This document shows positions 561 to 35,855 of a stretch of DNA of 37,976 nucleotides, in pieces; the first letter of the stretch is position 1, and the number at the start of each line of letters is the position of its first letter. The notes beneath the pieces are model-generated. The model was not told the origin of the DNA, ran no database searches, and saw only the letters and a list, made by a program, of their open reading frames with translations. The stretch comes from Alphaproteobacteria bacterium (GTDB taxonomy: Bacteria > Pseudomonadota > Alphaproteobacteria > Acetobacterales > Acetobacteraceae). The translations under genes and the position numbers were made by a program. The stretch covers positions 1 through 37,976 of the forward strand of contig JAPLOJ010000302.1 in NCBI GenBank assembly GCA_026400795.1, in the 5' to 3' direction.

Positions 561-830
561 ATGGGCGGCATCGCTGAAGCAAGCCGGGAAGCGCTTTGGG
601 TCACTCTGCAAATCGGCGGGCCTTTGCTTATACTGTTGCTCGTCGTGGGGCTTGTGGTGGCCGTGTTCCAGGCGCTGACCCAGGTGAATGAAGCAAGCCT
701 TTCCTTCCTGCCGAAAATGGCCGCGCTGGCCATTGCCCTTATTCTGCTGACCCCCTTTTTTACCGGGGTGCTGCGCGGCTATGCACAAACCCTGTTTGAC
801 ATGATCATCCAGGTGGGTTCGAGGCCCTGA
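561..830 (+). CDS. fliQ: Flagellar export gate protein FliQ
   Basis: An 89-aa, two-helix membrane protein of the flagellar type III export gate (FliPQR complex, inner membrane). The helices are visible at about residues 16-36 (GGPLLILLLVVGLVVAVFQA) and 52-72 (MAALAIALILLTPFFTGVL). Between them is the conserved FQALTQVNEASLSFLPK loop, diagnostic of FliQ/SctS. Length is the family norm. FliR begins two bases after the stop. FliP is not in this window and must be encoded elsewhere. Confidence 0.95.
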   Translation: MGGIAEASREALWVTLQIGGPLLILLLVVGLVVAVFQALTQVNEASLSFLPKMAALAIALILLTPFFTGVLRGYAQTLFDMIIQVGSRP

Positions 831-831
831 G

Positions 832-1608
832 ATGACCGAAGCGGAATGGCTGGCCGCCCTGCCCGATATGGTGTTTCGCGCTGTGCTGATGCTCGCGCGC
901 ATTGGTGCGGTGGTGATGCTGATGCCTGGCTTGGGTGAACAGGAAATCCCCGCCAATATCCGCCTGGGGCTTGGGCTTGCGCTTGTCATGGTGCTTTACC
1001 CGGTATTGTCGCCATCCTTGCCGGCGGCGCCGGATTCCGTGGGCGAAATGCTGCGTCTGACCCTGATCGAAATCGTCATCGGCGTCTGGTATGGCGGCCT
1101 TGCCCGGCTTGTCACCCTTGCCATGAACATGGCCGGGCAGCTTTTTGCGCTACTGCTTGGGCTTTCGCAGATGCTGGTGCCGGACCCGGCCATCGGTGGG
1201 CAGAATGCCGTCACTGGGCGGTTTTTTGCGCTGATTTCGGTGGTGCTGCTGCTGAGCAGCGGGCTTTACGCCCTGCCGCTCCGCGCCTTGGCGGAAAGCT
1301 ATGCCGTGCTGCCGGTGGGCCAGGGTTTCCTGGCCGGCCCGGGCGCTGAGGCCATGGCAGCGGCGGTTGGGCAAAGCTTCATCGTGGCCCTGCAACTCAT
1401 GGCGCCCTTCCTGCTGCTTTCCGTGGTGCTGAATGTCGCTTTCGGCTTGCTCGCGCGCATCGCGCCGCAGGTGCAGATCTACTTCCTGGTGGTGCCTGGG
1501 CAAATCGTGCTTGGCCTTTTGCTGCTGGCCCTGTTATTGCCAGCCATGCTCGGACTTTATGCCAGTATCGCGCGGGAGACTTTCCTCGCCCTGCCTGGGG
1601 TGCGTTGA
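832..1608 (+). CDS. fliR: Flagellar export gate protein FliR
   Basis: A 258-aa polytopic membrane protein of the FliR/SctT family, part of the FliPQR export gate through which rod, hook and filament subunits pass. The N-terminal half has FRAVLMLARIGAVVMLMPGLGEQEIPANIRLGLGLAL, the FliR signature region (hydrophobic segment, then PGLGxxxIPxxIRLxL). Several further hydrophobic segments follow, up to VVPGQIVLGLLLLALLLPAML near the C-terminus. Length matches the family. It starts two bases after fliQ and ends three bases before flhB, so all three are read from one message. Confidence 0.95.
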   Translation: MTEAEWLAALPDMVFRAVLMLARIGAVVMLMPGLGEQEIPANIRLGLGLALVMVLYPVLSPSLPAAPDSVGEMLRLTLIEIVIGVWYGGLARLVTLAMNMAGQLFALLLGLSQMLVPDPAIGGQNAVTGRFFALISVVLLLSSGLYALPLRALAESYAVLPVGQGFLAGPGAEAMAAAVGQSFIVALQLMAPFLLLSVVLNVAFGLLARIAPQVQIYFLVVPGQIVLGLLLLALLLPAMLGLYASIARETFLALPGVR

Positions 1609-1611
1609 GCC

Positions 1612-2682
1612 ATGGCGAGCGCGGGTGGCGGCGAGGAAGGCGGCCAGGACAAGACAGAAGAAGCCACCGCAAGGCGTATCGAAAAGGCGCGGGAAGAAGG
1701 CCAGATCGTCATGTCGCGCGAAGTGGTCGGCTTCGTGGCACTTGGCGCGGCGCTGGTCGGCATGATGTTCGGCCTGCCGCCGCTTGGGTATGAATTGATG
1801 CGCGGCATGCGCGGGGTCTTGGAAAACGGACATCAATTGCAAGTTGGTCTTGTCGCGACCGAGATGATGCGCCTTGGCCTGCTTGCCGTGTTGCCCGTCA
1901 TGGTTATGGGCATGATCGGCGCCATCGCCGGCGCCATGCTGCAAAGCCGCGGACTGGTTTCGGCCAAGGGGCTAAAGCCGCAATTTTCCCGCCTTAATCC
2001 CGGCTCCGGCATCAAGCGCCTGCTTGGTCCTGAAGGTGGCATCGAATTCCTGCGCACGCTGATCAAGCTTGGTGTGGTTGGCGCTGCGCTTTGGTGGGCG
2101 CTGGGCGATCCGCGGGAATTACGCGCGGCACTTTCACTTGGGCCGGGTGACCTGCTGCGCATGATGGTGAGCGCTTCGATGGATCTGTTCATCGCAGCCA
2201 TGATCGCCTTCGCGGGGATTGCCGTGCTGGATTACCTGGTGGTGCGTTTTCGCCATCTGCACAAGCTTCGCATGACGCGCCAGGAATTGCGTGAGGAAGT
2301 GAAGGAAAGCGATGGCGATCCGATGATCAAGGGCCGGATCAGGAGCCTGCGTATGGCGCGGGCGCGCCGGCGCATGATGGCAGCTGTGCCGAAGGCTGCC
2401 GTCGTCATCACCAATCCGACCCATTACGCGGTAGCACTTGCCTATGACGAAAACTCCCAAGCCGCACCAAAGGTAGTGGCGAAGGGGGCGGAAGCGGTGG
2501 CGGCACGCATCCGAGCGCTGGCCGAGGAATCCAATGTGCCGCTGGTGTCCAATCCGCCCTTGGCGCGGGCGCTGTTCAAGCTGGAATTGGACACCGAAAT
2601 ACCGGCCGAACATTATCAGGCCGTCGCCGAAATCATCGCCTATGTCTGGCGTTTGCGAGGCCGCGCCGGGGCAGCGGCGTGA
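1612..2682 (+). CDS. flhB: Flagellar export switch protein FlhB
   Basis: A 356-aa export-apparatus protein. FlhB switches substrate specificity from rod/hook to filament proteins after cleaving itself between Asn and Pro of an NPTH motif. That motif is present at residues 268-271 (VVITNPTHYAVAL), with four hydrophobic segments before it and the short cytoplasmic domain after it. The N-terminus has the usual charged KTEEATARRIEKAREEGQ stretch. Hook length control requires FliK, encoded at 14297-15709. The stop overlaps the next gene's GTG start by four bases (GTGA). Confidence 0.96.
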   Translation: MASAGGGEEGGQDKTEEATARRIEKAREEGQIVMSREVVGFVALGAALVGMMFGLPPLGYELMRGMRGVLENGHQLQVGLVATEMMRLGLLAVLPVMVMGMIGAIAGAMLQSRGLVSAKGLKPQFSRLNPGSGIKRLLGPEGGIEFLRTLIKLGVVGAALWWALGDPRELRAALSLGPGDLLRMMVSASMDLFIAAMIAFAGIAVLDYLVVRFRHLHKLRMTRQELREEVKESDGDPMIKGRIRSLRMARARRRMMAAVPKAAVVITNPTHYAVALAYDENSQAAPKVVAKGAEAVAARIRALAEESNVPLVSNPPLARALFKLELDTEIPAEHYQAVAEIIAYVWRLRGRAGAAA

Positions 2683-19955: not shown

Positions 19956-20466
19956 ACCGTGTTCGATTGGGCGTAACATTGCCTGCTGGGTCAAGCTGAA
20001 GGCCGAATCACGCAGCCGAATTTTCGGTATAGCGGTCCCTCGTTCGCATGACTGCTCCTGCCAGGATGCCCGCGCAGGGTGTGGTTGGGCGATCGTGACC
20101 ACAAAGCCCTAGTTCCTTGATGTGTCATTCGGCGTTCTTGATTTGCCTTATCAATCTTGTTCCCGCAAATAGGCGAAGTGATCCCGCCCACAGGTAAACC
20201 ACCAGTGGAGAAAGAAGAACACTTCGCTAATTTTTTGCCGGGCAAAAATTCATTTCTGCAAAATTTTCTCGTATCCGACAGGGTTTTTTGCGCTAACAGA
20301 AAAATTAAATCATTAATCGAGAAAATTCTACGGTATTTACCCGTTTTTTCAGCAATCATTCAATTTCTCCCCTCATTATCACGTCATTCGCAAGAAGCGG
20401 ATGCAACCAGACCTCACGGCCACTTTCATTAGGGCACAGGTCACGAATGGGAAGGGGAATACCCCA
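19956..20466 (+). promoter_or_regulatory. AT-rich leader of the flagellin gene, with inverted repeats
   Basis: A 511-bp gap with no gene. Near its start, TGGGCG-TAACA-TTGC (19968-19982) has the sigma-54 GG/GC spacing and a perfect -12 box but a poor -24 box; it is about 485 bp from the fliC ATG, so it is a weak candidate. From ~20220 the DNA becomes strikingly AT-rich. It contains a 17-bp palindrome TTTTTGCC-G-GGCAAAAA (20232-20248) and a perfect 10-bp inverted repeat, AATTTTCTCG (20262-20271) with CGAGAAAATT (20318-20327), 46 bp apart. A shorter one, TTGAT-N7-ATCAA, is at 20138-20154. If transcribed, these would structure the flagellin 5' leader. Confidence 0.45.
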
Positions 20467-21288
20467 ATGGCTATGAATTCCGTAAATACCAATCTCGGCT
20501 CCATGGTGGCGCTTCAGTCGCTGAACAAGACTTCTGATCAGCTTTCTGTTGTACAGAAGCGTATCTCGACAGGCATGCGCGTCGCAGACGCCAAGGATGA
20601 TGGCGGCGCCTTTGCCGTCTCCCAGGCCATTCGCGCGGATGTCGCTGGTTTGACTGCAGCCAATGAACAGCTTGGCGGCACCAAGGGCGTTTTGGATACC
20701 ACTTTTGCCGCTCTCAATAAGGTCTCCGAAAGTATGGTCAAGGTCCGTGAGACCCTGACGCGCCTAGCGGACGGAACGATCAATGATGATCAGCGCACGC
20801 AGTATGAATCCCAATATACCGCCCTGCGTACTCAGATCCAGAACTTCGTCACCGATGCCACCTATAACGGCCGGACACTCCTGGATACGGCCGATGGCGA
20901 TATCGTGACCACGCGCAACGAATCGGGCGATACCTTCACGATTACGGCGATTGATGGCGCGACGGACCTTGTTGTGGCTGCAGCGCCAGCCGATGTCACC
21001 GCTGCGCAGGCCGCATTGGCCGATGGCGGGGACTTCAAGACCGTCCAGTCAGCCGTCGCTGATGCCCTGAACCAGTTCGGGTCTGACAGCAACTACATTG
21101 ACAGTCAGATCCGCTACAACAAGGACAAGGTGGACGCCATGGAAGGTGGCCTTGGCGCCTTGGTTGACGCTGACTTGGCCAAGGAAAGTGCCAAGCTGCA
21201 GTCGCTGCAGATTAAGCAGCAGCTTGGCACACAGGCGATGTCTATCGCCAATCAGTCTCCGCAGATGTTGCTGAGCCTGTTCCGTTAA
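20467..21288 (+). CDS. fliC: Flagellin
   Basis: A 273-aa flagellin forming the filament. The N-terminal coil NTNLGSMVALQSLNKTSDQL, QKRISTGMRVADAKDDGGAFAVSQAIR and the C-terminal SLQIKQQLGTQAMSIANQSPQMLLSLF are the conserved D0/D1 ends. The central D2/D3 part is only ~80 residues, the compact form common in alphaproteobacteria. ATG 20467 is preferred over an in-frame ATG at 20401: AGGGGA lies eight bases before it and it gives the normal MAMNSVNTN start. flbT and flaF follow; in Caulobacter FlbT controls flagellin mRNA stability and FlaF is needed for flagellin production. Confidence 0.97.
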   Translation: MAMNSVNTNLGSMVALQSLNKTSDQLSVVQKRISTGMRVADAKDDGGAFAVSQAIRADVAGLTAANEQLGGTKGVLDTTFAALNKVSESMVKVRETLTRLADGTINDDQRTQYESQYTALRTQIQNFVTDATYNGRTLLDTADGDIVTTRNESGDTFTITAIDGATDLVVAAAPADVTAAQAALADGGDFKTVQSAVADALNQFGSDSNYIDSQIRYNKDKVDAMEGGLGALVDADLAKESAKLQSLQIKQQLGTQAMSIANQSPQMLLSLFR

Positions 21289-21291
21289 TCA

Positions 21292-21323
21292 AGGCGGCGG
21301 CCCTGCCCAAGGCGGGGCCGCCT
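21292..21323 (+). terminator. Hairpin after fliC, possible terminator or attenuator
   Basis: A GC-rich inverted repeat starts three bases after the fliC stop: AGGCGGC (21292-21298) pairs with GCCGCCT at 21317-21323, with further pairing possible inside. No long T-run follows (only ACTTT), so it may reduce rather than stop read-through into flbT at 21343, or protect the 3' end of the flagellin message. Confidence 0.45.
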
Positions 21324-21342
21324 ACTTTCGCGGGAGACAAAA

Positions 21343-21619
21343 ATGTCAACCCTAGTTCTTGAACTTCGCCAAGGCGACATGATGATCGTCAACGGCGCCC
21401 CGATACGCTTTCGCAATCGTGCCCGAATTGAATTGACGGCGCGTGCGCGCTTCCTGTTCGGCAAGCAATTGATGACGCCCGATATGGCCAATACCCCGGC
21501 CAGGCGCATCTATTTCGCGCTTCAGACCGCCTATATCGGCGATCATGAGGAAAGAAGGGCCGGCTGTGCTGGGCCTCAGCCCCGTCGCTTCGGTTTCCAT
21601 ACCGGAGGATGTGGCATGA
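21343..21619 (+). pseudogene. flbT: FlbT with out-of-frame internal deletion
   Basis: Residues 1-66 are a clear FlbT N-terminus: VLELRQGDMMIVNGAPIRF, the ARFLFGKQLMTP stretch and NTPARRIYFALQTAYIG. After codon 66 the frame leaves the family. The FlbT C-terminus is present in another frame, from about 21542: IMRKEGPAVLGLSPVASV, ending at TGA 21617-21619, which overlaps the flaF ATG by four bases as an intact flbT would. Against a usual length of ~130-140 aa, roughly 50 codons are missing and the two ends are out of frame. The frame used by the N-terminus runs on into flaF, predicting a 202-aa FlbT'-FlaF protein. FlbT is an RNA-binding regulator of flagellin mRNA in Caulobacter. Deletion in the organism or an assembly error are both possible. 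Confidence 0.75.
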
Positions 21620-21951
21620 ATATGATGCACGCGCGCCGCGCCTATCAGATGGCACAACAAGCGCTGGATCCGCGCGAGCAGGAAGCTGATATTGTTCTTC
21701 GCGTAACCGGCAGCCTCAAGGCGGTGCAAGGGCAACATGGCATCGCGCGGGCCCGTGCCATTGCGGATAATCGTCGGCTTTGGATTGCCCTTGAAGCTTC
21801 CGTTCGGCATCCGGCGAACCAATTGCCGCAGCAAACCAAAGTTACCATGCTGAATGTGGGCCGTGCCGTATTGCGGGAAATGGAAAGCTCGGAACCTGAC
21901 CTTTCCTTCCTGATTGAGGTAAATGAACAATTGGCCGCTGGGCTGCGTTGA
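21616..21951 (+). CDS. flaF: Flagellar biosynthesis regulator FlaF
   Basis: A 111-aa protein if started at ATG 21616, which has GGAGG at 21604-21608, seven bases upstream. It shows the FlaF pattern: ARRAYQMAQQALDPREQEADIVLRVTGSLKAV, then ADNRRLWIALEASVRHPANQLPQQ and the C-terminal SFLIEVNEQLAAGLR, where FlaF usually ends in INxxIAxGLR. FlaF is required for flagellin synthesis or secretion in Caulobacter. The same frame continues upstream into the broken flbT, so it may also be made as a fusion. The strong internal ribosome site argues that free FlaF is produced too. Confidence 0.87.
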   Translation: MNMMHARRAYQMAQQALDPREQEADIVLRVTGSLKAVQGQHGIARARAIADNRRLWIALEASVRHPANQLPQQTKVTMLNVGRAVLREMESSEPDLSFLIEVNEQLAAGLR

Positions 21952-21956
21952 AGCAA

Positions 21957-21995
21957 ATGGCGTGGTCCGCCAAAACGGATCACGCCATTTTTTTT
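21957..21995. terminator. Bidirectional rho-independent terminator between flaF and tctC
   Basis: A 13-bp stem, ATGGCGTGGTCCG (21957-21969) with CGGATCACGCCAT (21976-21988) and one G-T pair, has a six-base loop (CCAAAA) and is followed by eight Ts on the plus strand (21988-21995). It begins five bases after the flaF stop and ends at the stop codon of the convergent tctC gene. It is the clearest terminator in the window. Confidence 0.9.
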
Positions 21996-22978
21996 CAGCT
22001 TTGCAGCTTGATGCCGGAATCGCGGATCACCCGCGCCCATTTGTTGATGTCATCGGCAATCCTGGCGCGCATCTGCTCACGATCGCCATCCACAATATCA
22101 AGGCCAAGCCCGGTGAAGCGCTGGCGCATGGCGGGGTCCGCCAGAATGGCCCGCGATGTCGCCTGCACGCGATCCAGGATGGGCTGAGGCGTGCCTGCCG
22201 GCGCCATGGTGCCGAACCAGGAACTCGCCTCAAAACCTGGGAAGCCTTGCTCAACCAGCGTTGGTATTTCCGGCGCATTGGCTGAACGCTGGAGCGTGGT
22301 GATGCCAAGCCCGCGCAATTGGCCATCGCGCACCATGGGAAGCACGGCGCCGATATTCTGGATGCCAAGCCGGACACTGCCATTCAGCACATCGGCCATA
22401 TTCGCGCCGCGATAGGGGATGTGTTCCATCTTGATGCCGGCCTGGCTGCAGAACATCTCGCCAGCAGCATGCTGCGGCGTACCGACGCCCGGCGTGCCAT
22501 AGGATACCTTGCCGGGATTGGCGCGAGCGTAAGCGATCAATTCCTGGATCGTGCGCGGCGGAAAATCGCGGTTCGACACAAAAAGCGATGGCATGGCGAA
22601 GGCAAGATGAATTGGCGCCAAATCCTTCACGGGATCAAAAGGTAGGCGCTGCAGGTTTGGCAGAAGGGTCAAGGCCGCACTCGCGGCCCACATCAGCGTA
22701 TAGCCATCCGGCGCCGCTTTCGCGACCCGATCAACACCAATGGCGCCTGAATTGCCTGCGACGTTTTCCACCACCACCGGCTGGCCCCAGGCTTCGCTGA
22801 ATCTTTGCGCGAAGATACGCCCCGTCACATCTGTGGCGCTACCGGCAGTGAAGCCAACAACCAGACGCACCGGGCGATCTGGCCAGGCGCCCTGTGCAAA
22901 GGCGCCGGTGGCAGTGCCGGAACCAATCAAAGCCGCGCCGCCCATCATCAGGCGACGCCGCGAAAGCGATGCTGTCAT
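21995..22978 (-). CDS. TctC/Bug family periplasmic solute-binding protein
   Basis: A 327-aa extracytoplasmic receptor of the tripartite tricarboxylate transporter (Bug) family. The N-terminus MTASLSRRRLMMGGAALIGSG looks like a Tat-type signal peptide (SRRRLM) with likely cleavage after AFA. Family features follow: WPDRPVRLVVGFTAGSATDVTGR, VVVENVAGNSGAIG, the PDGYTL block, HIPYRGANMADVL and PEIPTLVEQGFPGF. A GGGGAGGA ribosome site lies just before the ATG. No TctA/TctB membrane genes are nearby, so it is an orphan receptor and its ligand cannot be told. Many such orphans are known in Acetobacteraceae and Burkholderiales. Confidence 0.93.
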   Translation of the reverse strand: MTASLSRRRLMMGGAALIGSGTATGAFAQGAWPDRPVRLVVGFTAGSATDVTGRIFAQRFSEAWGQPVVVENVAGNSGAIGVDRVAKAAPDGYTLMWAASAALTLLPNLQRLPFDPVKDLAPIHLAFAMPSLFVSNRDFPPRTIQELIAYARANPGKVSYGTPGVGTPQHAAGEMFCSQAGIKMEHIPYRGANMADVLNGSVRLGIQNIGAVLPMVRDGQLRGLGITTLQRSANAPEIPTLVEQGFPGFEASSWFGTMAPAGTPQPILDRVQATSRAILADPAMRQRFTGLGLDIVDGDREQMRARIADDINKWARVIRDSGIKLQS

Positions 22979-31427: not shown

Positions 31428-33053
31428 TCAGTCGCCAGCAGACTGTTTGGTCGCATTTTCCGAGCCGCCAAGTGAGTCCACTTGGCTTGAAAATGCTCCA
31501 GCATTGGCCCGCATATGGCTTGGGCTGCGTTCGCTGCGCGTCATGCCCAAATCCTGCAACAATAAATCCGCGCTGATGCGCGCACCTTCATAAATCACCG
31601 GTAAGCCACTGCCAGGATGCGTGCCGCCGCCCACCAGATACACGCCCTTCGCCTTGCCAAAGCGATTGCGCGGGCGGAAATGCATCATCTGGCGCACATT
31701 ATGCGCAAGATTGAAGGTGGCCCCATAGCCAACCGCATATTCATCCTGCCACCCCTGCGGCGAGATGATTTTCTCATACCGAATACGGCTTTCGATATCA
31801 TGCAAGCCAATCGCCTTCAGCCGGTCCAACGCAAGGCGCCGATAGCGCGGTTCTTCCGTCGCCCAATCCGCCCCGCCCAAAAGATTCGGCACGGGTACCA
31901 GCATATACAATGTGGAATGCCCGGGCGGTGCCATGGAAGGGTCGGTACTGGCCGCGGCCTGCACATAAAGCGAAGGATTTTGCGGAATAATCCCCGCTTC
32001 GATCTGCGCCAGATTATTCTCATAATCTTCCGCGAGCAGCACGGTATGATGCGCCAGATCAAGCTGCCCTTCGATGCCCAGATAAAGCATGAAGGTGGAA
32101 CAGGAATAACGCGCTTCGGCGATTTTCTTATCGGGCCATTGCGGGCGCTGTTCTTCTTCCATCAGACCCGGAATGGCATGCGCGAAATCGGCATTTACCA
32201 CCACCGCATCCACCGCATGAAGCCGCCCGCCCGCTTCAACACCCACCGCGCGCCGGCCTTCAAAGACAATGCGATCAACCTTGGTGTTCAGGCGGATATC
32301 TACGCCCACACTTTCCGCAACCCGCGCCATGGCTTCTGACACAACACCGCACCCGCCGCGCGGATGAAACACGCCATGTTCATATTCCAGGAAAGACAGG
32401 ATGGAGAACATGCTCGGGCAGCGGAAGGGACTCATGCCCAGGTATTTGGACTGGAAGGAGAAAGCCAAGCGCGTGCGCGGGTCCGAGAAATGCCGCTGTA
32501 ATTCCTGATCGAGCGAAAGCCAGGGCCGCAGATGCTTGAGCCCATTCATCACTTCCGGCGCCAAATAGGTCATCACGCCAGGAAAGGGCCGTTCCAACAC
32601 GGGGCGGAAGGCTTCCAGCTTCACGCGGTTTTCCGCCATGAAGCTGCGCACGCCCGCCGCATCGGCCGGGTTGATCTTCGCCACTTCCGCTTCCATGCGC
32701 GCCAGATCGGGCGTCGCTTCAATGGAAACGGGATTGGCACCTTCAAAGATCAGCCGATATTGCGGATCAAGGCGGATCAGATCCACCTCATCCTCAAGCC
32801 GCGCGCCGCAGGCTTCGAAAATTTCCGCCAGGATGCGCGGATACAGGAAGAAAGTCGGCCCAATATCAAAGCGGTAGCCGCCGGGCGCGGTTACGGTGCG
32901 GGTCCGCCCGCCCACCACGGCATCCTTTTCGAATACCGTGACGCGCACGCCGGAGGAGGCCAGCAGCATGGCCGCAGCCAAGCCTCCGGGGCCGGCACCG
33001 ATCACGGCAACATGGGGACGAGTTTGTGAGAGCGAGGGAGGTGATGCGTTCAT
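31428..33053 (-). CDS. crtN: CrtN-like squalene/dehydrosqualene desaturase
   Basis: A 541-aa flavoprotein of the phytoene-desaturase family, first gene of the carotenoid operon. FAD fold VAVIGAGPGGLAAAMLLASSG, then GYRFDIGPTFFLYPRI. The middle QSKYLGMSPFRCPSMFSILSF and KKIAEARYSCSTFMLYLGIEG parallel CrtN, and the C-terminal block is VYLVGGGTHPGSGLPVIYEGARISADLLL. CrtN introduces the conjugated double bonds into a C30 backbone; with HpnC/D/E present the substrate should be squalene. The last ~22 codons after DLGMTRSERSPSHMRAN are encoded by a palindromic repeat and look like a non-family tail. No good ribosome site precedes the ATG. Confidence 0.9.
   Translation of the reverse strand: MNASPPSLSQTRPHVAVIGAGPGGLAAAMLLASSGVRVTVFEKDAVVGGRTRTVTAPGGYRFDIGPTFFLYPRILAEIFEACGARLEDEVDLIRLDPQYRLIFEGANPVSIEATPDLARMEAEVAKINPADAAGVRSFMAENRVKLEAFRPVLERPFPGVMTYLAPEVMNGLKHLRPWLSLDQELQRHFSDPRTRLAFSFQSKYLGMSPFRCPSMFSILSFLEYEHGVFHPRGGCGVVSEAMARVAESVGVDIRLNTKVDRIVFEGRRAVGVEAGGRLHAVDAVVVNADFAHAIPGLMEEEQRPQWPDKKIAEARYSCSTFMLYLGIEGQLDLAHHTVLLAEDYENNLAQIEAGIIPQNPSLYVQAAASTDPSMAPPGHSTLYMLVPVPNLLGGADWATEEPRYRRLALDRLKAIGLHDIESRIRYEKIISPQGWQDEYAVGYGATFNLAHNVRQMMHFRPRNRFGKAKGVYLVGGGTHPGSGLPVIYEGARISADLLLQDLGMTRSERSPSHMRANAGAFSSQVDSLGGSENATKQSAGD
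31453..31496. repeat. Complete copy of the dispersed palindromic repeat, inside the 3' end of crtN
   Basis: Nested inverted repeats: outer arms GCATTTTC (31453-31460) and GAAAATGC (31489-31496), inner arms GCCAAGTG (31467-31474) and CACTTGGC (31479-31486), loop AGTC. The left half matches 4201-4234 after cckA. It encodes residues ~520-534 of CrtN, beyond the conserved family end. Such elements resemble REP-type palindromes found near gene ends; no named family is claimed. Confidence 0.7.
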
Positions 33054-33137: not shown

Positions 33138-35855
33138 TTAGGCTGCCATTGCCCCCTCAATTTCCGCGAAGCGCGCCCCAGCACGCGGGAGAAGCCGGCG
33201 CAGATAGAAATCCGCCACCGCCCCGTAAGCCGCGCCATCCGCCGCAGCCGCCCGCGCGAGAAGAGCACCCCCCAGCACCCAGCCCACCGCATCCAGATAG
33301 GCAGTCGCGAGCGATTGGCTAGCCTCCGCATCGCGACCTTGTTCGGCCAGCACCGCTTCCGTGGTGCGGGCCAGCCCCTCAGCTGCGGCGCGCAGCCTGG
33401 CATCTGGCAGGGCGGCGATCTCCGCGATAAGGCTCCTCATCTCCGCCCCACCATCGCGGGCGAGCTTGCGGGTCAGCAGGTCAATCGCCTGGATGCCGTT
33501 GGTGCCCTCATAAATCGGGGCAATGCGCGCATCGCGCAGCACCTGGGCGGCGCCGGTATCCTCAATGAAGCCCATGCCGCCATGCACCTGCACGCCGAGG
33601 GACGCCGTTTCCACCCCGCGATCCGTGGCCCAAGCCTTCAGCACCGGGATCAGCAGCGCGAGCCGCGTGCTGGCCGCGGCATCACCCATCAGCTCGGCGC
33701 GGTCGGCAGCCACCGCCGCTTCCAGCATGATCAGCCGGGCCGCGAGCGTGGTCGCGCGCATTTCCATCAGCATGCGCGCGACATCTGGGTGTTCCGCAAT
33801 AGCCCGCCCATTCTGCACGCGCTGCGCGGCATAGGCTTCCGCGAGCCGTAGCGCCGCTGCGCCATGTGCAACACCCTGGGTGCCAACGCCAAGCCTCGCG
33901 TTATTCATCATGGCGAACATGGCTTGCAGGCCGCGATGCGGTTCGCCGACCAGTTCAGCCTCAGCCCCCTCATACAACATGATGCAGGTGGGGCTGCCAT
34001 GGATGCCCATTTTGCGTTCAATGCCACCGCAGCGGAAAGCATTGCGCGCGCCATCGGGCAGGATTTTTGGTGCAGCGAACAGCGAAATCCCGCGCGAGCC
34101 CGGCGGCGCATCCGGCAGGCGCGCCAGCACCAGATGCAGGATATTGCCGGCACAATCATGCTCGCCCCAGGTGATGAAAATCTTCTGCCCGTGCAAGGCA
34201 TAACGCCCATTGCCAAGCGGTTCCGCGCGCGTGCGCAGCATGCCCAAATCACTGCCGGCTTGCGGTTCGGTCAGGCACATCGCGCCGGTCCAATCGCCCG
34301 CGATCAAGGGCGGCAACCAGCGCGCCGCCTGATCCGGCGTGGCGTGATGGCGCAGCAGATCAATCGCGCCGGCCGTCAGCAGTGGGCCGAGCATGAAGGA
34401 GGTATCGGCCGCCATGCCCAATTCCGTCATGGCGGTCCAAAGGCTGAGCGGCAGGCCCTGGCCGCCATGTTCCACCGGCGCCGCCAAGCCCTGCCAGCCG
34501 CCTTCGCGCCATTGGTCGTACAAGGCCGGGTAATGCGCCGGCGTCGTCACCGTGCCATTGGCGTAGCGTGCGCCCTGCTTATCCGCTTCCTGGGCTTTCG
34601 GTTGCAGCGCTTCGGTGCAGAAGCGATTGGCCTCAGTCACAATCTGCGCAATGTCATCGGCTGACAGAGGCGCGCCGGCTGCGTTGGTAAGGCCCGGCAG
34701 GTCAATCAGGCGCGTGAGGCCAAAAATCAGATCCGGGGCATCCCGCCCGGCGGCCCAACCCGGCAGGGCGCGGGCGAGAGCAGTATCCTCCGCCGCCGCG
34801 GCCAGGGCCAGACCCAAAAGCGGGGCGAATTTGAAGCCATGGCCGGAAAAGCCGGACATGACAAAGCAGCCATGGGCGGCGGCTTCCAGGATGAATTCCT
34901 CTTGGTCTTCCACATCGTAATAGCAGGCCTGGGCACCCAAGACGCGATAGCCCGCCGCATTGATCAGGCGAGGACGGGCGAGGGCCAGGATTTCCTCGAT
35001 TTCCGCGGGCGTTGCCGCGCGCGGATCGGCCCCGGCATCGCCCTGGCGGGAAAAGCGGTGATCCCCGATCTTGAGCGCGGTGCCGGCCACCGGGGGCACG
35101 GCGTAGAACCCGCCATCCTCGGCCAGATCAAGCAGCATGGGCGCGGCTTCCCAGGCGGCGCGGAAGCCAGCTGGGGGTTCAAGGCGCACCAGGATTTGGC
35201 GAGAAGGCACCACGCGGCCAGTCAGCCCCGTGCCGAGCAGCTTTGGCCCCCAGGGTCCGGCGGCAAGCACCAGCAGATCGGCGCTGCGTTCCGCGCCATT
35301 GGCCAGGCGCAGTGTTTTGCGCGCCGGTTGGGCGGCGGCAACCTCGGCGGTTTCGAAAACAACACCCTGCGCGGCGAGAAACGCGGCGAGCCCGGCGACA
35401 ATCCGTTCCGCGAGCAGCGCGCCACCGCGCTGCAAGGTGAAGGCGGCGGCGATGCCGGTATCGGACAGCATGGGAAAGCGCGTGGTGATCTGATCCGGCG
35501 CCAAATCAGCGCAAGCATGCCCATCGGACCGCAGCGCAGCCCGGCTTTCGGCGAGCCAGCCACCTTGGTGATTGGCCAGCGCCAACACGCCGGTTTCCAC
35601 GTAATGCCGCGCGCCAAGCGCGGCCCAGATCATGTCCCAAGCCGCATAGGCGGGGTCAACCATCCGCATATAGCCGGCCTGCGCGCCATAGGCGTGGCGG
35701 ATCAGCCGGTGCTGATCCACGGATGCGCCGCGCGGATTTGGAATGGGCGCCTGTTCAATCACACGCACCTGCCAACCAGCGCGGGCCAGCGCCCAGGCGG
35801 TGCAAAGCCCCATGATGCCGGCGCCTAGAACAAGGGCGTTTCGTTGTGCTGCCAT
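33138..35855 (-). CDS. Fusion of sarcosine-oxidase-like flavoprotein and acyl-CoA dehydrogenase
   Basis: A 905-aa protein of two unrelated flavoenzymes. Residues 1-~370 are a DAO-family oxidase: ALVLGAGIMGLCTAWALARAG, GASVDQHRLIRHAYG, Cys311 (the position of covalent FAD attachment in monomeric sarcosine oxidase) and MSGFSGHGFKFAP (332-344). From ~375 on it is a FadE/DmdC-type acyl-CoA dehydrogenase: IFGLTRLIDLPGL, AMCLTEPQAGSDLGMLRT, GQKIFITWGEHD, the QVHGGMGFIEDTGAAQVLRDARIAPIYEGTNGIQAIDLL region and a C-terminal domain. The oxidase lacks its last few residues and the dehydrogenase its first few, so two adjacent genes seem joined in frame near 34730-34745. No known enzyme combines them; deletion or assembly collapse should be considered. 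Confidence 0.85.
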   Translation of the reverse strand: MAAQRNALVLGAGIMGLCTAWALARAGWQVRVIEQAPIPNPRGASVDQHRLIRHAYGAQAGYMRMVDPAYAAWDMIWAALGARHYVETGVLALANHQGGWLAESRAALRSDGHACADLAPDQITTRFPMLSDTGIAAAFTLQRGGALLAERIVAGLAAFLAAQGVVFETAEVAAAQPARKTLRLANGAERSADLLVLAAGPWGPKLLGTGLTGRVVPSRQILVRLEPPAGFRAAWEAAPMLLDLAEDGGFYAVPPVAGTALKIGDHRFSRQGDAGADPRAATPAEIEEILALARPRLINAAGYRVLGAQACYYDVEDQEEFILEAAAHGCFVMSGFSGHGFKFAPLLGLALAAAAEDTALARALPGWAAGRDAPDLIFGLTRLIDLPGLTNAAGAPLSADDIAQIVTEANRFCTEALQPKAQEADKQGARYANGTVTTPAHYPALYDQWREGGWQGLAAPVEHGGQGLPLSLWTAMTELGMAADTSFMLGPLLTAGAIDLLRHHATPDQAARWLPPLIAGDWTGAMCLTEPQAGSDLGMLRTRAEPLGNGRYALHGQKIFITWGEHDCAGNILHLVLARLPDAPPGSRGISLFAAPKILPDGARNAFRCGGIERKMGIHGSPTCIMLYEGAEAELVGEPHRGLQAMFAMMNNARLGVGTQGVAHGAAALRLAEAYAAQRVQNGRAIAEHPDVARMLMEMRATTLAARLIMLEAAVAADRAELMGDAAASTRLALLIPVLKAWATDRGVETASLGVQVHGGMGFIEDTGAAQVLRDARIAPIYEGTNGIQAIDLLTRKLARDGGAEMRSLIAEIAALPDARLRAAAEGLARTTEAVLAEQGRDAEASQSLATAYLDAVGWVLGGALLARAAAADGAAYGAVADFYLRRLLPRAGARFAEIEGAMAA

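Follow-up and report, generated by a model that had tools for sequence, protein, structure and literature searches.

A truncated and probably redundant flbT at a seam in the flagellar cluster of an alphaproteobacterial draft genome

In the window, by which is meant the whole analysed stretch of 37,976 nucleotides (contig C65; the draft genome has 450 contigs and is 84% complete), the flbT that stands at the end of the main flagellar cluster (copy A) lacks 155 bp of its coding sequence, and what remains of its reading frame continues into the downstream flaF. The same draft genome carries an intact second flbT; divergence from the nearest relative rises abruptly at the point of loss, and synteny breaks just behind flaF. 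The explanation that we favour, with moderate confidence, is that copy-A flbT is a truncated, redundant duplicate at a recombination or rearrangement seam and that the second copy, on contig C332, supplies FlbT. The junction would then have a recombinational origin, and the FlbT'-FlaF fusion product would be dispensable. Common loss of a spare copy, or a fault in the assembly, is more likely here than a novel mode of regulation. Related records, identified by name, are assemblies from metagenomes that carry the names Roseomonas sp., Asaia bogorensis, Rhodospirillales, Acetobacteraceae or Alphaproteobacteria. The coordinates of the features are collected in Table 1.

Table 1. Features around the flbT junction, in window coordinates
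Feature	Position	Strand	Basis or remark
Flagellin of the main flagellar cluster, 275 aa	20461..21288	+	Pfam Flagellin_N, Flagellin_C; 90% identity to G008 orthologue, full length, ungapped
Single open frame FlbT'-FlaF	21343-21951	+	202 aa
flbT copy A, 5' remnant (residues 1-74, ending DHEERRAG)	21343..21565	+	Pfam FlbT 1-70 of 125
Junction at which flbT lacks 155 bp (codons 75-126, approximately)	21565..21566	+	DNA alignment with 11 flbT genes
flbT 3' tail in its native frame (VLGLSPVASVSIPEDVA, stop); in the other frame the FlbT'-FlaF linker	21566..21619	+	Sequence alignment
GGAGG ribosome-binding site of flaF	21604..21608	+	Sequence; most orthologues have it
flaF, complete, divergent allele, 111 aa	21616..21951	+	Pfam FlaF 2-113 of 113
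Terminator-like hairpin of the TctC side	21955..21990	+	Starts three bases past the flaF stop
TctC (tripartite tricarboxylate transporter receptor) gene	21995..22978	-	Pfam TctC, E 3e-69

The open frame is composed of FlbT residues 1-74, followed by 17 frameshifted codons and then by the whole of FlaF. In its translation, residues 4-72 match positions 1-70 of the Pfam FlbT profile (E 4e-19), which falls short of the 125 positions of a full-length domain, and residues 98-201 match positions 2-113 of 113 of the FlaF profile (E 5e-18). A DNA-level alignment that included 11 flbT genes of other loci places one gap of 155 bp between nucleotides 223 and 224 of the frame (window 21565/21566), with the exact base of the junction uncertain within 21562-21566. 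As 155 bp correspond to 51.7 codons, the loss is out of frame, and the tail of flbT, GTGCTGGGCCTCAGC..GTGGCATGA (encoding VLGLSPVASVSIPEDVA and a stop), is out of frame with its 5' part. The TGA of this tail (21617-21619) overlaps the ATG of flaF (21616-21618). The genome collection contains 17 intact orthologues of copy A; all of them have this overlap and encode 143 aa. In comparison with these 17 orthologues the frame of the window gene is disrupted by the out-of-frame loss, as expected of a pseudogene. An earlier note on this DNA had described most of this arrangement correctly: an out-of-frame loss of about 50 FlbT codons, a continuous FlbT'-FlaF frame, a FlbT C-terminus in another frame with its TGA overlapping the flaF ATG, and a flaF that keeps its own GGAGG. 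It also had the FlbT N-terminus running into FlaF in frame 1, which is the case, but ended it at residue 66 instead of 74.

The downstream gene has the complete domain of FlaF (Pfam PF07309), the flagellin secretion chaperone, and stands behind flbT with its own ATG and a GGAGG 7 nt upstream of it. With start codon and ribosome-binding site retained, FlaF should still be translated from its own start, separately from the fusion. It differs from an ordinary flaF in that it can also be read as the C-terminal portion of a longer frame, and in that the allele is divergent: no copy-A flaF in the genus exceeds 77-78% identity to it at the DNA level.

Residues 1-74 belong to FlbT (Pfam PF07378), with an amino-acid difference from congeners at no more than 5 of 72 codons, while a complete FlbT, the post-transcriptional regulator of flagellin in Caulobacter and Brucella, is lacking in the window, the C-terminal helical core being absent. 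AlphaFold models of intact FlbT have C-terminal helices at residues 52-65, 68-88, 92-106 and 110-127, mostly predicted with high confidence. The missing residues, about 75-126, make up most of the last three of these, the best-predicted helices of the intact protein, together with many invariant residues; the residues conserved in the C-terminus, such as D108, C110, Y111, R119, R122, H123 and E124 (intact-orthologue numbering), all lie inside the missing block. The remnant is therefore not expected to function as FlbT. A search by sequence for a solved FlbT structure gave matches only to designed helical proteins.

The 5' remnant itself bears no mark of decay. Its DNA is 94% identical to that of the nearest relative at the flagellar locus (G008), its dN/dS in comparison with congeners is 0.02-0.07, and the changes private to the window are six synonymous ones and a single amino-acid replacement. 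Signs of relaxed selection on the remnant are therefore absent from dN/dS and private changes alike, as they would also be after a recent event. Hence, the event is either recent or not real.

The divergence tests take G008 as reference. The synonymous divergence, dS, is 0.39 for FlgE, 0.33 for FlgK, 0.28 for FlgL, 0.35 for flagellin and 0.25 for the 5' part of flbT, and reaches 1.77 for flaF. In third positions, flaF differs from G008 more than the genes to its left do (p 1.5e-11), and the DNA identity to G008, which is 89-94% to the left of the deletion point, is 70-80% to the right of it, whereas G008 and G005 compared with each other display no drop in identity at this point. In trees, the 5' part of flbT is placed beside G008 and G005, and flaF outside the supported group that these two form. 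A formal tree test for flaF does not reject G008 as its sister (p 0.12), and the replaced flaF may be that of G008. Over 20461-21558, the trees of flagellin, flbT and flaF disagree with one another across the congeners, and the tree of flagellin together with the 5' part of flbT has yet another shape. This discordance suggests that recombination at the flagellin locus is common in the genus.

The window contains the flagellar genes flgD, fliK, flgE, flgK, flgL, flagellin, flbT and flaF, and shares the order flagellin-flbT-flaF with its congeners. General flagellar decay is ruled out for the genes tested, as FlgE, FlgK, FlgL and flagellin are full length. The gene that follows flaF is the same in seven of eight relatives (G005, G007, G008, G009, G020, G024 and G026; not G029), and in G008 it is tsaD. 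In the window, synteny breaks at about 21952-21957, and the TctC gene with its hairpin takes the place of tsaD (21952-21995). In the relatives, the TctC region and flbT-flaF are found on separate contigs, and the sequence upstream of TctC differs among them, which means that gene order is labile here. Farther along the window, at 31444-31502, there is an element of about 55 bp that occurs with 92-98% identity at many sites in all seven congeners searched, sometimes in tandem, and looks like a dispersed intergenic repeat. At 33138-35855, an ORF of 905 aa combines an FAD-dependent oxidoreductase (DAO) domain and a complete acyl-CoA dehydrogenase in one frame.

The earlier note went on to expect that FlbT function is gone and flagellin levels are altered, and this expectation finds no support. 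The flbT on contig C332 encodes 141 aa with a full Pfam match; it is preceded by two flagellins and followed by a flaF, and it lies next to efp, apart from the other flagellar genes. Loss of all FlbT in the cell is thereby ruled out. Two flbT copies per genome are common in the genus, and 16 congeners that are at least 93% complete carry a single flbT each. With an intact copy present and one copy being evidently enough for these congeners, a loss of FlbT function is not expected: the C332 copy would cover it, FlbT activity is probably retained in the cell, and the truncation gives no ground for predicting an altered flagellin level. The sign of such a change would itself be uncertain, because the known effects of FlbT are opposite in direction. 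In Caulobacter, FlbT binds the 5' UTR of flagellin mRNA and a regulatory flagellin, and represses flagellin translation (PMC3930126, PMC7591256), whereas excerpts from work on Brucella describe an activator that is required for flagellin production (PMC8781033, PMC9812332).

How the junction arose can be explained in several ways. One is that 155 bp were simply deleted by replication slippage or end joining in a locus that is otherwise vertically inherited, with a flaF that merely evolves fast. The alignment indeed has one clean gap, and recombination elsewhere in the G008 locus could make G008 the odd one in the comparison. However, the gap has no flanking direct repeats, by which a deletion between such repeats is ruled out; the jump in synonymous divergence coincides exactly with the gap, and relaxation at the protein level does not account for it; and synteny is broken just downstream. 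We regard a mere deletion as improbable, since the jump and the break together indicate a junction made by recombination or rearrangement, or an artefact of the draft assembly, rather than the loss of a segment from a locus left intact in other respects. The term "internal deletion" in the earlier note is accordingly right in that 155 bp are absent, but too simple, as divergence rises at the same point and synteny breaks about 390 bp farther on. That the frame stays open across both parts and the FlbT part is undamaged could also mean that the N-terminal part of FlbT and FlaF form a selected bifunctional protein, linking the control of flagellin synthesis to flagellin export. This we hold to be very improbable indeed: the fusion is absent from every relative examined, the conserved helical core of FlbT is lost, and the linker is frameshifted sequence. 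A join in frame is, moreover, cheap by chance; most two-copy congeners have about 19 open codons in the frame ahead of copy-A flaF, so that an in-frame fusion is unremarkable. No other FlbT match that stops near position 70 occurs in the genus sample of 35 genomes, or among the 64 FlbT-bearing genomes of the 190 in the class sample, and a conserved FlbT-FlaF fusion was found in neither. Excerpts from the literature on flbT and pseudogenes, mostly concerned with Brucella, describe no natural fusion of this kind.

An error of assembly deserves more weight, although we still think it unlikely. A short piece with the flbT tail and flaF of a co-occurring congener or strain would have been misjoined to genuine sequence on either side, and copy-A flbT would be intact in the living cell. 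Such an origin could account for two unusual joins that fall within 390 bp in a draft of 450 contigs, given that its completeness is 84%, that the 390-bp piece between the two joins, both absent from relatives, is anomalously divergent, and that the 5' part of flbT is undamaged with amino-acid and synonymous private changes in the ratio of one to six. Against a misjoin, the draft has no second copy-A flbT or flaF, the junctions are not spanned by any repeat, and the tsaD of this genome lies in the interior of contig C144, where an MFS transporter gene precedes it, a position that fits a real rearrangement. Furthermore, both flanks of the window are closest to G008 and G009, from which follows that the contig is not a simple chimera of two species, an origin that we regard as unsupported.

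In the preferred reading, the flagellar cluster would have undergone recombination or rearrangement at its end. The lineage's own 5' part of flbT would thereby have been joined to a divergent piece carrying an flbT tail and flaF, and the join would have been faulty, with a net loss of 155 bp. The neighbour would have changed as well, the TctC gene now lying where tsaD sits in most relatives. The shortened flbT frame, deprived of most of the C-terminal helical core, would enter flaF by chance, with FlaF made from its own start and FlbT activity provided by the intact C332 copy.

Other damaged loci bear on this reading. In one congener (G025, locus L068, VGDM01000018, 1-535), the start of copy-A flbT is replaced by transposase-like sequence at the start of the contig (Pfam DDE_Tnp_1, E 0.0012, which is under its curated cut-off), and an internal TAA stops the frame at codon 78, with flaF intact behind it. 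The breakage is independent of that in the window. As in the window, the same copy is broken, flaF is preserved and an intact flbT of the other type occurs elsewhere in the genome; in contrast to the window, the damage consists of replaced first codons and an internal stop rather than a deletion. The genome of the window also has a third flagellin-flaF unit (locus L102, contig C326, about 630-1815, minus strand), in which flagellin is frame-broken, flbT is absent between flagellin and flaF, and the frame of flaF is open. This flaF clusters with copy-B flaF genes in a tree, and the genus has no other unit of the kind, apart from a contaminated genome with three flaF genes. Both cases fit the idea that an flbT copy can be dispensed with where another exists, while flaF is kept.

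For work with draft genomes, the locus illustrates that what looks like a clean deletion may be the trace of a seam left by recombination or of a join made in assembly, and that an intact copy elsewhere alters the consequence to be predicted. If the junction is real, it amounts to a natural experiment on a small scale: in a genus whose members have one or two flbT genes, two species have had the copy in the flagellar cluster broken but have kept flaF. That the cluster copy was broken twice and flaF retained suggests a greater need for flaF than for a second flbT.
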